Source: Saccharopolyspora gregorii
GTDB taxonomy: Bacteria > Actinomycetota > Actinomycetes > Mycobacteriales > Pseudonocardiaceae
DNA: 64,000 nt
Assembly: GCF_024734405.1 (NCBI RefSeq)
Contig: NZ_CP059556.1
Location: 310,001-374,000, forward strand
Reading direction: 5' to 3'
The notes beneath the pieces are model-generated. The model saw only the letters and a list, made by a program, of their open reading frames with translations, ran no database searches and was not told the DNA's origin. Below, one piece after another: positions 30,775-36,018 of the stretch (within the stretch, counting starts at the first letter, position 1; each line of letters starts with the position of its first letter). A program made the position numbers and the translations under genes.

Positions 30775-33700
30775 GTGCCCGAACCCCACCGCCTCAGGGG
30801 TGAGGTGTCCGAGCCCGATGCCACCGAGCAGTCCTCGAACGCTTCAGCAGCAAGTTCGCCGGGCGACGAGCGGGGCGGCCACGCCGAGCGGCCCGAGCGG
30901 CAGCGGCTCGCGGAGGGCGAGGCGGCGGGGTTCCCGGTCGAGGACCAGGAGGACGCCCCTCCCGCGCGCGGGAACGAATCGGAGCCTTCCGGCGATGGAC
31001 AGCCGGTGAAGGACGATCGAACCGACTCCACCAGCGATGACGGCGCGGGAACCGCGGAATCCGGTGGGAACGCGGAGTCCGGTGGCACCGCGCGGGCCGG
31101 TACCGGTTCCGCCGCCGCGGAGGAGGAGCGGTCCGCGGCCGAGCCCGGATCGGACGGCGATGCGGCGGGGAGCGCTGCCGCCGGGGCGATGAACGGGGAT
31201 GCGGCTGCGGATTCGGCCGACACCTCCGCCGAAGCGGGCTCGACCGGGGCTGAGTCTGCCGACGCCGACGCCGACGCCGACGCCGATTCCGCTGACGCCG
31301 ATTCCGCCGACTTCGGTGGTGACTCCTCCGACGGCGATGCGGCAGCCGGTGGGACCGACGCTCGGCGCACGCAGCGGGACGGGGCCGGAGCGAGCGGTTC
31401 CGGGCGGGGTGCCGCCGACTCGAAGCCGGGCGCGCTGGACCGGACCGTGACCGGGCGGCTGTCCGAGGGCGACGGATCGGGTCATGTCGGAACGGGTGGC
31501 CCGAGTTCGGCGGACGCCCGCTCGGCGGGCGCCGGTTCGGATGGCGCCGAATCGGATGGCTCTCGCTCGGCGGGCGCGGGATCGGATGACGCTGGAACGG
31601 ACGGCGCTCGTTCGGCGGACGCCGGGTTGGACGGTGCGCGCTCGGCGGATCCCGGATCGGACGGCGCCGGATCGGACGATGCGGGAGCGGGCCGGGCGAC
31701 CGGCGGCGCGGGTGGATCGGCTGCCGCGGACGCGGGCCCCGCGGCCGACGAGCAGGACTTCCCGACGCAGGACCCCGAGGAACAGGGGGAAGGCTCAGCG
31801 GAGCGGAACGAGGCCCCGGCCGGCGGCGACGGCTCGACCGTGACCGGCTCCGCGTCGGCGGACGGGACCGGCTCTGCCTCGGGGGACGGGTCCGGTGGCG
31901 CGCCGGGCACGGACCCCGGATCGACCGTCCGCGGCTCCCTGCGCGGCGACGTCCCGGCGGAACCGAACTCGATCAGCTCCCGGCCGGTCGGCTTCGTCGG
32001 CTCGGTGGAGCCCGAGGCCGGGCGGGAAGCCGCCGCGCACGACTTCTCCGGCTGGCAGACGACCGGGTCCCAGGTGACCGGGCGGGTCTCCGGTGTGCTG
32101 GACACCGCGTTCCGCGGTGCGGTCCCGGGCGCGGCGTCCGCGCCCGGTTCGGCTGACGACCGTTCGGACGCGGAAGCGACGGGACCGGGAACTTCGGGCG
32201 CGTCGTCCGAAGAGCGGTCCGCGGACGCGGCGGACGAGCCTTCGGGTGACCAGCTCGCGGGTGACCGGCCTTCGGCTGACGACCTTTCGGCCGACCGGCC
32301 TTCGGCTGACCACCCTTCGGACGGCTCGGTTGCGGATGACCGTCCCTCGGGAGCTCGGGGTCCGTCGGATCCGGGTTCCGCGGACGCGGACCCGACGGCG
32401 GAGTCGGTGACGGCGGAGTCGGCGGAGCGGTCGGCCCCGCAGGAGCGCGCCGCCGGGCACGGCTCGACGACCTCGGCGCAGCGCAGGACCGCCGCGGACA
32501 CCGCCGACGAGACGGCGAGCGCCGAGGACGGGAGCACCGGAGACGGGAGCACCGGAGACGAGCGGACCGGCGCGGCGGCGGAGCAGGCGGACTCCGCCGC
32601 GGAATCCGGTGCGGAGAGCACTGGCGGTGCGACCCGGCCGAGCAGCGGGAGCTCGGCGGGCACCGCCGCCGCGGACGGTCCCGCCGACTCGGCGACCGGC
32701 GCCACGGCCGCTGCTGATCCGGCCGGCTCCCCGGCCACCGCGGACGGCCGCACCGGTGAGGATGCTGCCGGGGACGCGGACGGGGTGGACGAGGACGCAC
32801 CGGGCCGGACCGATCGTTCCGCCTCGGAGGACGGCTCGGACCGACCCGCGGAGCAGGCATCCGAGGACTCGGTCCCGGACCACCGGACCACCGACGACCA
32901 GGCCACCGATCACTGGACTCAGGACGGCTGGACCCAGGACCGCTGGACCCAGGACCGCTGGACCCAGGACCGCTGGACTCAGGACGGCTGGGCTGCGGAC
33001 GCCGGGACCACGGGCGACCGGACCACCGACGAGCCGACCACCGACGAGCGGACCACCGGCGAGCGGACGACCGAGCGCGCCGCGCCGGACTTCGAGGTGT
33101 CCGACCCGGAGCAGGCCGCCGCCGTCAGCCGGGCGGAGCCGGCGGAGGACACCGAGACCACCGGGCCGCAGCAGCCGGCGACCGCGGCCGAGCCCCGGCC
33201 CTCCGAGGCCGAGGCCGAGGGCGCCGGCGCGGCGGTGGACGTGCCGCTGGACACCGCGGTGGCCGCGCAGGCCGAGCTCACCGAGGACGTCGAAGCCACC
33301 GGCCCGCAGCGGGCGGTGCCCGCGGAGGCGCCCAGCTCCGAGCAGGACTCCGGCCGGACGGGCACGACCGAGCGCTCCGCGCCCGCGACGGAACGCTTGG
33401 ACCGCAGCGCCCTCGCCGACCGCTCGACGACCGCGGACCGCTCGACGACCGCGGACGCCGACCGCTCGACCACCGCCGACCGCCCGGACACCACCGCCGC
33501 CCCGGCCGCTCCGGGCCACCCGGCATCCTCCGGCGGCCAGGCCACCGAACCGGCAGAGCGGACCGACGCCGACCGCGACGCGACGGCCGACCAGGACGCG
33601 GACGCCACCCGCGGTACCGCCCCGAGCACGGACCGGGATCCGACCGCCGACACCGGCCGGCTCCCCGTCGTCGAGGACGGGACCGCCCGCGTCGACCGCC

Positions 33701-36018
33701 GCCGGGCGGCCGAGGAGCGGACCCGCGACGAGGGGCCGACCGCCGAGCAGGCCCGGGTCGAGGCGGAGCCCGAGGAGGCCGCGGACGACCGGGACGAGCC
33801 CGTGGACTCGGCGTTCTCCGCCGATGCGGGCGCCGCCCCGCCGTCGTCCACCGATCCCCGGCCGCACGTCGAGCAGCCGCCCGCGGTGGACTCCGCGTTC
33901 ACCGCGGATGCCGGGACGCCGATCGGGCCGCCGCCCGCCGAGCAGACCCAGCAGTTCCGGCGGATCGACGACACCCAGCAGTTCAGCGTGGCCGACCTGG
34001 AGCAGGAGGCCCGGCGCCGCGAGCAGCACGCCCCGAAGCAGCCCGACCAGCAGCAGGCCGCGAAGCAGCCCGGCGAGCAGCACGCCCCGAAGCAGCCCGA
34101 CCAGCAGCAGGCCGCGAAGCAGCCCGGCGAGCAGCAGGCCGCGAAGCAGCCCGACCAGCAGCAGCGCCCCCAGCAGGGTCGGCAGCCCCAGGACCCGCAG
34201 CAGCAGGGCCGCACCGAACCCCCGCAGGACCGCCCCGCCGACCGGCCGCGCCCGCAGGCGTTCGACCAGGGTCCGCCGACCACCCGGATCCCGATCGTCC
34301 CGCCCGCGCCGCAGCAGCCGTCGCGCCCGGTGCCCGGCCCTTCGGACGCGGAGCGCACCCAGCAGTTCCGCCGCCCCGACTTCTCCGGCCCGCCGCCCGG
34401 CAGGCAGCAGGGGCAGCAGCCTCCGCCGCCGCGCACCATCCCGGTCGCGCCGCACCGCCCGCCGCAACAGCAGCAGCCCCCGCAGCCGCAACGGCCCGCG
34501 CAGCCGCAGGACTTCGCCGTTGCCGCGCAGCCGCCGCGGCCCCAGGAGCAGGCCCAGCCCGCGGAACCGCACGAGGACGAGCGGTACGACGGCTACGAGG
34601 AGCACGAGGACGCTCCCGCCGAAGCGGCCCCCGCGCCGCGGCGCGGGCGCGCCACGGTGCTGCTGGCGGTGTTGACCGTGGTCGTGCTGGGCGCGGGTCT
34701 CGCGGTCGGCGTCCCGGCGTTGATCAACGGGATCAGCGCCGCCCAGCTGGCCGATCCGCCCGCGCCGGTGCGGCTGTCCCCGTCGATCCGCCCGGTCGGG
34801 ATGGACGCGCCGGAGCCGAGCGGTTCCGGCATCGAGGCGGCGGTCAGCGGCCCGCTGGCGAACCCGGTGCTGGCGCCGGTCACCGGTGCGGTCGTCGACG
34901 TGCGGTCCGGGAAGACGCTGTGGGAGCGGCAGCAGGACACGCCGATGATGCCCGCCTCCACCGGCAAGTTGCTCACGACCAGCGCCGCGATGCTGGAGCT
35001 CGACCACGACGCCCGGTTCACCACCGAGGTGGTGCGCGGTTCCCAGCCGGGCAGCGTGGTGCTCGTCGGCGGCGGCGACCCGACGTTGTCGACGATGCCC
35101 GCGGGCCAGGAGTCGGTGTACCCGGGCGCGGGCCGCTTCGACGACCTCGCCGAGCAGGTGCGGGCGGCGACCGGCGGCCAGGTCACCTCGATCCAGGTGG
35201 ACACCAGCCGCTACCGGGGGCCGACGATGGCCCCCGGCTGGCTGCCCGGCGACGTCGGCGACGGGATCATGGCACCGATGGAGTCCGTGATGGCCGACGG
35301 CGGGCGCACCGGCGACCCGACCGAGGAGTACGACTCGCGGACCCAGAACCCCGCCGAGCTGGCCGGTCGGGAACTCGCGCAGCGGTTGGGCGTGCCCGCC
35401 TCCGCGGTGTCCGAGGGGACCGCGCCGCGCGGCGCCCAGCGGCTCGGTGCGGTGCGGTCGGCGACGATGCGCAAGCTCGTCGAGAGCACGCTGATCCACT
35501 CGGACAACGTGCTGGCCGAGGCGCTGGGCCGCGAAGTCGCGATCAAGACCGGGAAGGAACCGTCCTTCGCCGGTGCGGTGCAGGCGGTGCGCGAGGTGCT
35601 GCAGCGCAACGGCGTCGACCTCACGGGCGTGCAGATGTCCGACGGCAGCGGCCTGTCCACGGAGGACCGCATCCCGGCGAAGGTGCTGGCCGGGTTGATG
35701 GCCACCGCCGCCGAACCGGAGCGCGACGGCGGCCTGCCCGCCAAGAGCGCGAAGCTGCGCGCGCTGCTCACCGGCCTGCCCGTCGCGGGCGGCTCCGGCA
35801 GCCTCGCCGACCGCTACGGCGACGGCGCGGGCCGCGGCTGGGTCCGCGCGAAGACCGGCACCCTCGACGGGGCGAACAGCCTGTCCGGGACGATCCTCAC
35901 CGAGGACGGCCGGCTGCTGGTGTTCGCGCTGATGTCCAACAGCACCAGCCCGCCGACGCAGGTCCGGCCCGCGCTCGACGAGGTCGTCGCGGCCGTACAG
36001 CAGTGCGGTTGCCGCTGA
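30775..36018 (+). CDS. dacB: PBP4-type D-alanyl-D-alanine carboxypeptidase (S13) with a giant disordered N-terminal region
   Basis: 1747 residues. Residues 1 to about 1290 are low-complexity, acidic and rich in Asp, Ser, Thr, Ala, Gly and Glu, with sub-repeats (WTQDx at 32914-32988; 9-residue KQPxxQxxx units from 34036; Ala-Asp runs near 31260). A single membrane helix follows (about 1293-1316, [17 protein letters not shown]), then the S13 domain with S1395-T-G-K, S1576-D-N and K1693-T-G, all intact. The predicted layout is a cytoplasmic tail and an extracytoplasmic enzyme that trims or cross-link-edits peptidoglycan. Mycobacterial relatives are about 460 residues, so the N-terminal part is extra. 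The GTG start has GAGGAGGAAG 4-13 bases upstream, and the frame is open throughout, so the long form is probably real. Confidence 0.9.
32914..32988 (+). repeat. 15-bp coding tandem repeat (WTQDR/G x5) in dacB
   Basis: Five 15-base units encode [25 protein letters not shown]. The nucleotide copies are nearly identical, suggesting recent expansion by slippage. Confidence 0.95.
34036..34164 (+). repeat. 27-bp coding tandem repeat (KQPD/G-EQ units) in dacB
   Basis: Four full 27-base units and a fifth partial one encode alternating KQPDQQQAA and KQPGEQxAx. It forms a Gln/Pro/Lys linker between the acidic region and the membrane helix. Confidence 0.93.

Follow-up and report, generated by a model that had tools for sequence, protein, structure and literature searches.

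A dacB-type DD-carboxypeptidase gene of Saccharopolyspora gregorii with a giant, predicted cytoplasmic tail and a recurrent threonine motif

The window analyzed here is a 64,000-nucleotide stretch of the Saccharopolyspora gregorii genome (contig NZ_CP059556.1, positions 310,001 to 374,000), and the subject of this study is a dacB-type gene on its forward strand (30775..36018, +), which starts at GTG and encodes 1747 amino acids. Frame translation and Pfam identified the product as an S13 DD-carboxypeptidase of the penicillin-binding protein 4 (PBP4) type with a giant N-terminal tail. The frame scored 283.7 bits against PF02113 (cut-off 22.8), in two stretches, and was one of three S13 genes above this cut-off in its genome. 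The peptidase S13 domain (34840..35991, +) carries the motifs STGK, SDN, and KTG (S1395-T-G-K1398, S1576-D-N, and K1693-T-G), all intact and invariant across 12 aligned S13 sequences, and its nearest solved chains were DacC (1w5d), D-Ala-D-Ala carboxypeptidase (2wke, 1w79), and Penicillin-binding protein 4 (2ex2). A preliminary description of this DNA had placed the S13 domain in the last ~350 residues of the 1747-residue frame; the frame length stands, but the enzyme part is longer, at ~420 residues. The strongest membrane helix, and the sole strong one, spans residues 1295-1313 (34657..34713, +), is preceded by PRRGRA, and is oriented N-in, C-out by the positive-inside rule. The giant N-terminal region reported in the preliminary description thus comprises 1294 residues before the helix, and comparison with relatives bore out the frame as real. 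The gene is dacB of the Saccharopolyspora family, and its product, as read from sequence, is a type II membrane protein whose predicted S13 DD-carboxypeptidase faces outward and whose disordered tail lies within the cytoplasm.

The divergent neighbor of dacB is ppa, encoding inorganic pyrophosphatase (29986..30612, -), and the genes downstream, all assigned by Pfam, encode a Zincin_2 metallopeptidase (36086..37198, +), tilS (37349..38365, +), and ftsH (39178..41676, +). The order dacB-Zincin_2-tilS is that of the mycobacterial dacB operon (three genes compared). A promoter and terminator scan found no site of either kind, with 0.0 and 0.5 expected, respectively.

The tail (residues 1-1294, 130 kDa) contains 254 Asp and Glu, 109 Lys and Arg, and no Cys, has an isoelectric point of 4.19, and is low in hydrophobic residues. 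A, G, D, S, E, and T are its most frequent residues, joined by P and Q farther along the tail. We divided it into two parts. The outer tail (about residues 1-987; 30775..33735, +) begins with the conserved sequence VPEPH(S/R)(L/I)RGEVS(E/D)PD (30775..30819, +), found by congener comparison, and is length-plastic and fast-evolving according to alignment, substitution rates, and base composition. The membrane-proximal core tail (about residues 988-1294; 33736..34656, +) has GPTAEQ at its start and contains the best-conserved motifs in the alignment. These include two tandem threonine motifs, EQ-T1058-QQFRR and D-T1067-QQFSV (33946..33984, +), as well as GPP-T1169-TRIPIVP (34279..34302, +) and AER-T1195-QQFRRPDF (34357..34377, +), all recognized by alignment and by the scoring matrix described below. 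The internal repeats mentioned in the preliminary description were recovered by a repeat search as a 15-bp tandem repeat of 5.3 copies (93%; 32913..32991, +) and a Q/P/K-rich 54-bp tandem repeat of 2.7 copies (97%; 34019..34164, +), neither of which occurs in any of the five congeners. At the former (32913-32991), five WTQD units and the next W account for six of the seven tryptophans in the whole tail, and they are missing from the other five congeners.

Long open frames come cheap in GC-rich DNA, as illustrated by an antisense open reading frame (ORF) of 1788 amino acids that overlaps the dacB frame, so open-frame length alone is no proof of a gene and comparative evidence is needed. The GTG start, the Shine-Dalgarno sequence (SD) AGGAGG six bases 5' of it (30763..30768, +), and the start VPEPH(S/R)(L/I)RGEVS were common to all six genomes of the genus, the window genome included; the preliminary description had proposed looking for this GTG in related species. 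With starts chosen by the SD rule, a VPEP(Q/H) start was also present in 15 of 16 loci named Saccharopolyspora. In six genome pairs with at least 0.86 nucleotide identity, 81 of 81 insertions and deletions (indels) in the tail were multiples of three. Nine pairs together gave 161 of 175, all 14 misses falling in three more distant pairs. A further distant pair, G004/G003, gave 33 of 50. The ratio of nonsynonymous to synonymous substitution rates (dN/dS) was 0.51-0.71 in the tail vs 0.20-0.28 in the enzyme in four genome pairs; the fifth pair, G001/G002, had too few changes. In none of the six congeneric genomes did an SD-backed in-frame start occur 200 residues or less from the helix. In the window gene, the only in-frame start within this distance is a GTG at residue 1186, which lacks an SD, and weaker or more distant SD-backed starts do occur, including a weak one at residue 545. 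A chance ORF, or an internal start near the helix, was rejected on the basis of the conserved start and SD, the in-frame indels, and the lack of an SD-backed start there. The preliminary description had listed a start immediately ahead of residue 1290 and frequent frameshifts in close relatives as signs against a translated tail, and neither was seen at the sequence level. By sequence comparison, the 1747-residue frame is confirmed as one real gene.

A dacB orthologue was found in 288 of 297 genomes of the family sample, representing 45 of 46 genera. For comparison of the N-terminal regions before the helix (N-regions), we took 66 loci, comprising 60 hand-picked from the matches listed so as to spread over genera, five congeners, and the window. 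Four were left out because no frame was obtained by regular expression (G247, G023, G061, G157) and two because their N-regions had 17-18 residues (G104, G042). This left 60 N-regions, which represent 27 genera and ranged from 66 to 1407 residues. In G175, G096, G032, and G074 the start has just a weak SD, and for G021 the SD-backed start was chosen manually. Homologues with a long N-terminal extension, a check suggested in the preliminary description, were thus readily found, and the idea of a tail unique to one species was rejected because long tails are common in the family. In every one of the 60 N-regions, Lys and Arg were more numerous in the 15 residues before the helix than after it, which places the tail in the cytoplasm by the positive-inside rule and supports the earlier picture of a long, disordered cytoplasmic tail on a peptidoglycan enzyme.

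Among 80 named loci, the N-region was shorter than 60 residues in 12 of 12 Rhodococcus and Tomitella loci (~20 residues in Rhodococcus; L148 not counted), in five of five Actinomycetospora loci (0-49 residues), and in four metagenome-assembled genomes named to family level or above; the remaining 59 loci had 86-998 residues. In this set the start of L126 relied on a weak SD, and the N-region of L195 came out as 0. The excluded locus L148, recorded as Rhodococcus rhodnii (JOAA01000018), has a 962-residue tail and groups with Kibdelosporangium and Actinocrispum, and the record is probably mislabelled. The preliminary description had put relatives at ~460 residues, which is true of Mycobacterium tuberculosis (461 amino acids; PMC10815838) and Rhodococcus but not of the gene's own family.

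In the class-wide sample, a homologue was detected at 1e-30 in 250 of 296 genomes. Among the out-of-family matches listed, most frames were shorter than 600 amino acids, and at least nine had 700 or more. Five of the latter were inspected: two lacked a tail (G312, G457), G579 had no clear one, and G492, like its 623-residue relative G391, had ~100-130 P/S-rich residues with an approximate start. G312 (1210) and G457 (927) were rejected as giant tails, since their matching frames have 472 amino acids with 17 residues before the helix; their reported open-frame lengths disagree with the frame holding the match, and such values need checking by translation. The fifth, G495 (L250, another actinobacterial family), has an unrelated A/P/S-rich extension of ~400 residues before the S13 helix, in a frame of 882 amino acids by translation vs 939 with one TGA in the search output.

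A quick 86-row tree of S13 domains, with SH-like approximate likelihood ratio test (SH-aLRT) support only, placed the window genus in a clade of starred support with Saccharopolyspora, Actinopolyspora, and Halopolyspora. On this tree, the label 'short' required two changes, the label 'long' 10, and three length classes 11; starred branches alone forced seven changes of 'long'. Tail lengthening occurred at different places, as a short tryptophan motif, WP(T/S/A/V), shows. In many genera, the long-tailed g28 among them, it occupies residues 7-14, but four Saccharopolyspora and three congeners of the window have it 240-440 residues away from the helix. Judging from these comparisons, tail length converged across lineages and tail sequence did not.

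The rapidly changing tails share short motifs. A hydrophobic residue at position +3 of Thr occurred at 2.20 times expectation in the window genus (six N-regions, 88 sites) and at 2.19 times in the 54 others (368 sites), vs 0.77 and 0.85 times, respectively, at +3 of Ser. A smaller hydrophobic peak was present at Thr +6 (1.75 and 1.56 times). By shuffling, 33 of 60 single N-regions reached p < 0.05. With phi denoting a hydrophobic residue, T.[RK]phi was found in 143 copies vs 16.4 in shuffles and TQ.phi in 117 copies vs 10.9. The weighted consensus at T+3 sites was E/Q(-2), T, Q/V/M/T(+1), R/Q(+2), I/F/L/V(+3), R/P(+4), P/V(+6). Blocks such as VEQTQQFRPI and AE(R/Q)TQQFxRPDF recurred in order in several of 12 aligned tails, separated by variable linkers, and G017 contained three EQTQ motifs at nine-residue spacing. 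An acidic residue at T+3, considered as a second FHA code, was rejected, as Thr showed no enrichment (0.94).

The tryptophan motif, in the form WP(T/S)x(D/E/N), occurred in 43 of the 60 N-regions, spread over 22 of the 27 genera. Its 54 copies compare with 1.1 in shuffled sequences, and A or V can also fill the third place. It is degenerate in the window species and two congeners; GPTAEQ stands where three congeners have WPTxD/E. The exact WPT motif was accordingly discarded for the window species, which has GPT in its place.

To score threonines elsewhere in the window genome, a matrix derived from the motif as it occurs outside the genus of the window was applied to 1613 Thr of 85 other ORFs, which were crudely picked from the window and selected stretches, represent part of the genome, and probably include some that are not genes. 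PonA1 and MurJ are PknB substrates in mycobacteria, and class A PBPs and MurJ were therefore examined as candidate counterparts, with tails placed by reading the sequences. The N-terminal tails of a class A PBP (DEQS-T-QQFRPP, 10.7) and a MurJ (DDR-T-QHIPR, 11.2) both outscored the best of the 1613 Thr (10.0). In the class A PBP (PF00912; C1, 6.288 Mb, L257), DEQSTQQFRPPQ (10.7), GGQSTRQVPQPG (6.7), and GQQPTRQVPPPP (5.1) all lie before the transglycosylase domain. In MurJ (PF03023; C1, 6.326 Mb, L258), DDRTQHIPRVE (11.2), EQTQVLRPTG (6.8), and AETQPIPAVL (6.1) precede the first membrane helices, and a fourth scoring Thr (5.8) is near the C-terminus. Four further proteins were scored for Thr of at least 5.0, namely two more class A PBPs (2 and 0 such Thr), a PASTA-PBP (0), and another MurJ (3); by reading, these Thr were in or at the membrane or in outside parts, none in a clear N-terminal tail.

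One cluster of the genome encodes, by Pfam, a kinase with four PASTA domains, a PbpA-type PBP, RodA/FtsW, a PP2C phosphatase, and FhaA, and four FHA domains in total were found in the genome. The juxtamembrane Thr of two PASTA kinases ranked 12, 21, 24, and 25 of 1613, others ranking 139 and 215, and four of 11 exceeded the 2% cut vs 29 of the remaining 1602 Thr (p = 4e-5). T367 of FhaA ranked 14 and T7 of an FHA protein ranked 17. Two further proteins of the window had high-ranking Thr. In a VTT-domain (DedA-type) membrane protein (60488-61666, -), the C-terminal tail bears DEIPTQQLPRIR and ADDITDELPRIS, which rank 3 and 5 among the 1613, so that this protein is a further candidate carrier of the same predicted tag. 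The C-terminal 188 residues of FtsH (39178-41676, +) form a Q/P-rich disordered tail with the Thr of rank 2 of 1613.

On this evidence, we propose that the tail may be a multivalent phospho-acceptor of PASTA kinases read by FHA proteins, with predicted phosphorylation, FHA binding, and clustering, a reading in which our confidence falls slightly short of even. Its working part would be the membrane-proximal core of ~300 residues with several threonine motifs of the form (E/Q)xT(Q/V/M/T)(R/Q)(I/F/L/V)(R/P). PASTA kinases of the PknB type would phosphorylate tail threonines, and FHA proteins, FhaA first, would bind the phosphothreonine (pT) and its +3 residue, consistent with the reported FHA recognition of motifs at pT+3 (PMC5549992). 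The bound FHA protein would hold DacB in a complex with MurJ and the class A PBP, whose N-terminal tails bear the same motif. Several motif copies would give multivalency and local clustering, dephosphorylation by PstP would bring release, and the outer ~990 residues would add reach and copies under loose constraint. We infer every step past the motif, namely phosphorylation, FHA reading, clustering, and the effect on wall synthesis. The kinase-target role suggested in the preliminary description thus gains sequence support from the T+3 motif and the matrix test, the sites being predicted ones, and its interpretation as a whole was partly supported. The tether and condensate-scaffold roles that it also named are conceivable, the latter by analogy with the Rv1747 module described below.

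Several known systems resemble parts of this proposal. Mycobacterial DacB (MtbPBP4; Rv3627c, MSMEG_6113) shares the S13 domain, the single N-terminal helix, and the operon with Zincin_2 and tilS/mesJ, and depletion of the dacB operon reduced bipolar wall synthesis (PMC6435803). Unlike the window protein, MtbPBP4 is described as a protein of 461 amino acids whose membrane region occupies residues 1-28, which leaves no long cytoplasmic tail (PMC10815838). PonA1 of mycobacteria is likewise a wall enzyme outside with a long, unconserved PknB-target tail inside, whose phosphorylation slows elongation (PMC4483258), and the class A PBP of the window genome, a candidate PonA1 counterpart, has STQQFRP in its N-terminal tail. 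However, PonA1 belongs to another enzyme family and is described with one mapped phosphosite, in contrast to the many predicted sites of the DacB tail. In the MurJ/MviN-FhaA-CwlM module, threonine phosphorylation by PknB is read by FhaA in wall synthesis, FhaA binding phospho-CwlM and MurJ (PMC6180346), and the MurJ of the window genome has the same motif. DacB differs in that it trims the wall and is neither a transporter of precursors nor a regulator, and its link to FhaA would be a predicted one. FhaA also matters for polar growth (PMC11898655). Rv1747 is a membrane protein with a cytoplasmic FHA-linker-FHA module that contains a disordered linker and condenses, and phosphorylation promotes this condensation (PMC9312465). 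Unlike Rv1747, DacB has no FHA domain by Pfam, so an FHA partner in trans would be required. Phosphosites of M. tuberculosis favor disorder (PMC4304846). The enzyme itself is an ordinary DacB, and PonA1 is the one clear precedent for a wall enzyme with a kinase-target tail. In the open-licence literature, we found nothing on DacB or a DD-carboxypeptidase joined with disorder and phosphothreonine or a Ser/Thr kinase, nor the 1.3-kilo-residue tail, the length series, the Thr-specific motif, or its sharing with MurJ and the class A PBP.

A number of observations weigh against a phosphorylated, FHA-read tail. Taken alone, 27 of the 60 N-regions were not significant and two fell below expectation, and the T+3 excess of the window tail itself was modest (11 vs 6.1 expected, p 0.026). 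Seven of the 11 juxtamembrane Thr were below the 2% cut; once the +3 column was removed from the matrix, none of the 11 passed (Mann-Whitney U test, p 0.08), so that the juxtamembrane signal rests on the +3 position. The GarA-type ETTS Thr ranked only 129 and 214 of 1613, ranks 1-9 belonged to other proteins, some probably by chance, and some higher scorers lay in folded or doubtful ORFs. The published PknA/B motifs, Glu-x-x-pT, pT-x-Pro, and Pro-pT (PMC5845002), were not recovered at T..phi sites, where E(-3), P(+2), and P(-1) stood at 1.1, 0.7, and 1.3 times expectation. The study of the FhaA interactome does not mention DacB in its main text (PMC11898655), and the DacB of M. tuberculosis, as described, lacks a tail (PMC10815838). 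A point against the frame itself is that residues 1-400 showed no third-position excess (0.125, 0.168, 0.157) in the closest informative pair, G003/G005, which implies that they are nearly unconstrained in sequence. Constraint was uneven, with dN/dS of 0.07-0.53 at residues 1001-1100 in the four informative pairs, and much of the outer ~990 residues is under weak constraint and possibly serves as a spacer.

The most serious alternative, which we regard as unlikely, is that only a short ancestral tail matters and the giant outer part is a neutral or near-neutral repeat expansion that is tolerated. This would agree with the missing third-position excess in residues 1-400, with dN/dS values of up to 0.82, with the many short tandem repeats, two arrays of which occur in the window species alone among six, and with several Saccharothrix that carry the motifs on tails of only 86-97 residues. 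GC content at third codon positions (GC3) points the same way: it was 0.76-0.90 over the first 750 codons of the window gene and 0.93-0.99 over the remainder, and in most of 16 long-tailed genes examined, the window gene included, it was low at the 5' end (about 0.7-0.9) and climbed along the gene, possible causes being weak selection, an origin from repeats, or an effect on the mRNA. However, the frame is kept across tens of indels, long tails arose in separate clades with 10 changes of 'long' on the quick tree, and T..phi copies rise with tail length (rho 0.83, 27 genus medians), although chance alone would partly do likewise.

It is also conceivable, though improbable in our view, that the motifs serve for docking and are recognized in unphosphorylated form, e.g., by a scaffold of the DivIVA/Wag31 or FtsZ type or by an adaptor, which would make the tail a recruitment tether. 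The wide occurrence of WP(T/S)x(D/E/N), whose third place may equally be A or V, the variable linkers between motifs, and the departure from the published kinase motifs would all fit. The restriction of the T..phi signal to Thr and not Ser argues for phosphorylation instead, as does the same motif in kinase juxtamembrane segments and in the N-terminal tails of a class A PBP and of MurJ, both from families that include known PknB substrates. A tail acting purely as an entropic spacer or steric brush, which would set crowding or reach at the membrane with the motifs incidental, could explain a 20-fold length variation among tails that stay low in hydrophobic residues; specific motifs far above shuffles and recurring in order between genera make it quite improbable. 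That the upstream part is untranslated, DacB starting near the helix and the long frame being a GC artefact, is very improbable given the conserved start and SD, the 81 of 81 in-frame indels in close pairs, and the lack of an SD-backed start near the helix, even though chance long frames such as the 1788-residue antisense ORF are common here.

Steering of actinobacterial wall growth by PASTA kinases and FHA proteins is known for few substrates only. If the phospho-acceptor reading of the DacB tail holds, a broader and more speculative idea, to which we give clearly less credence, is that one phosphothreonine tag, approximately E/Q-x-pT-Q/x-x-phi-R/P, would be shared by the cytoplasmic tails of the lipid II flippase MurJ, a class A synthase, and DacB and read by FhaA/FhaB, so that PASTA kinases would assemble or take apart the machinery of wall growth in the form of a multivalent cluster. 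The DacB tail, of up to 1400 residues, would then be the main scaffold, repeatedly lengthened by lineages as a form of tuning. The natural series of tail lengths on one orthologous enzyme, from ~20 to 1400 residues, makes the placement of wall enzymes by multivalent phosphorylation testable, and the DacB tails illustrate that very long, fast-evolving bacterial tails can conceal conserved short motifs.

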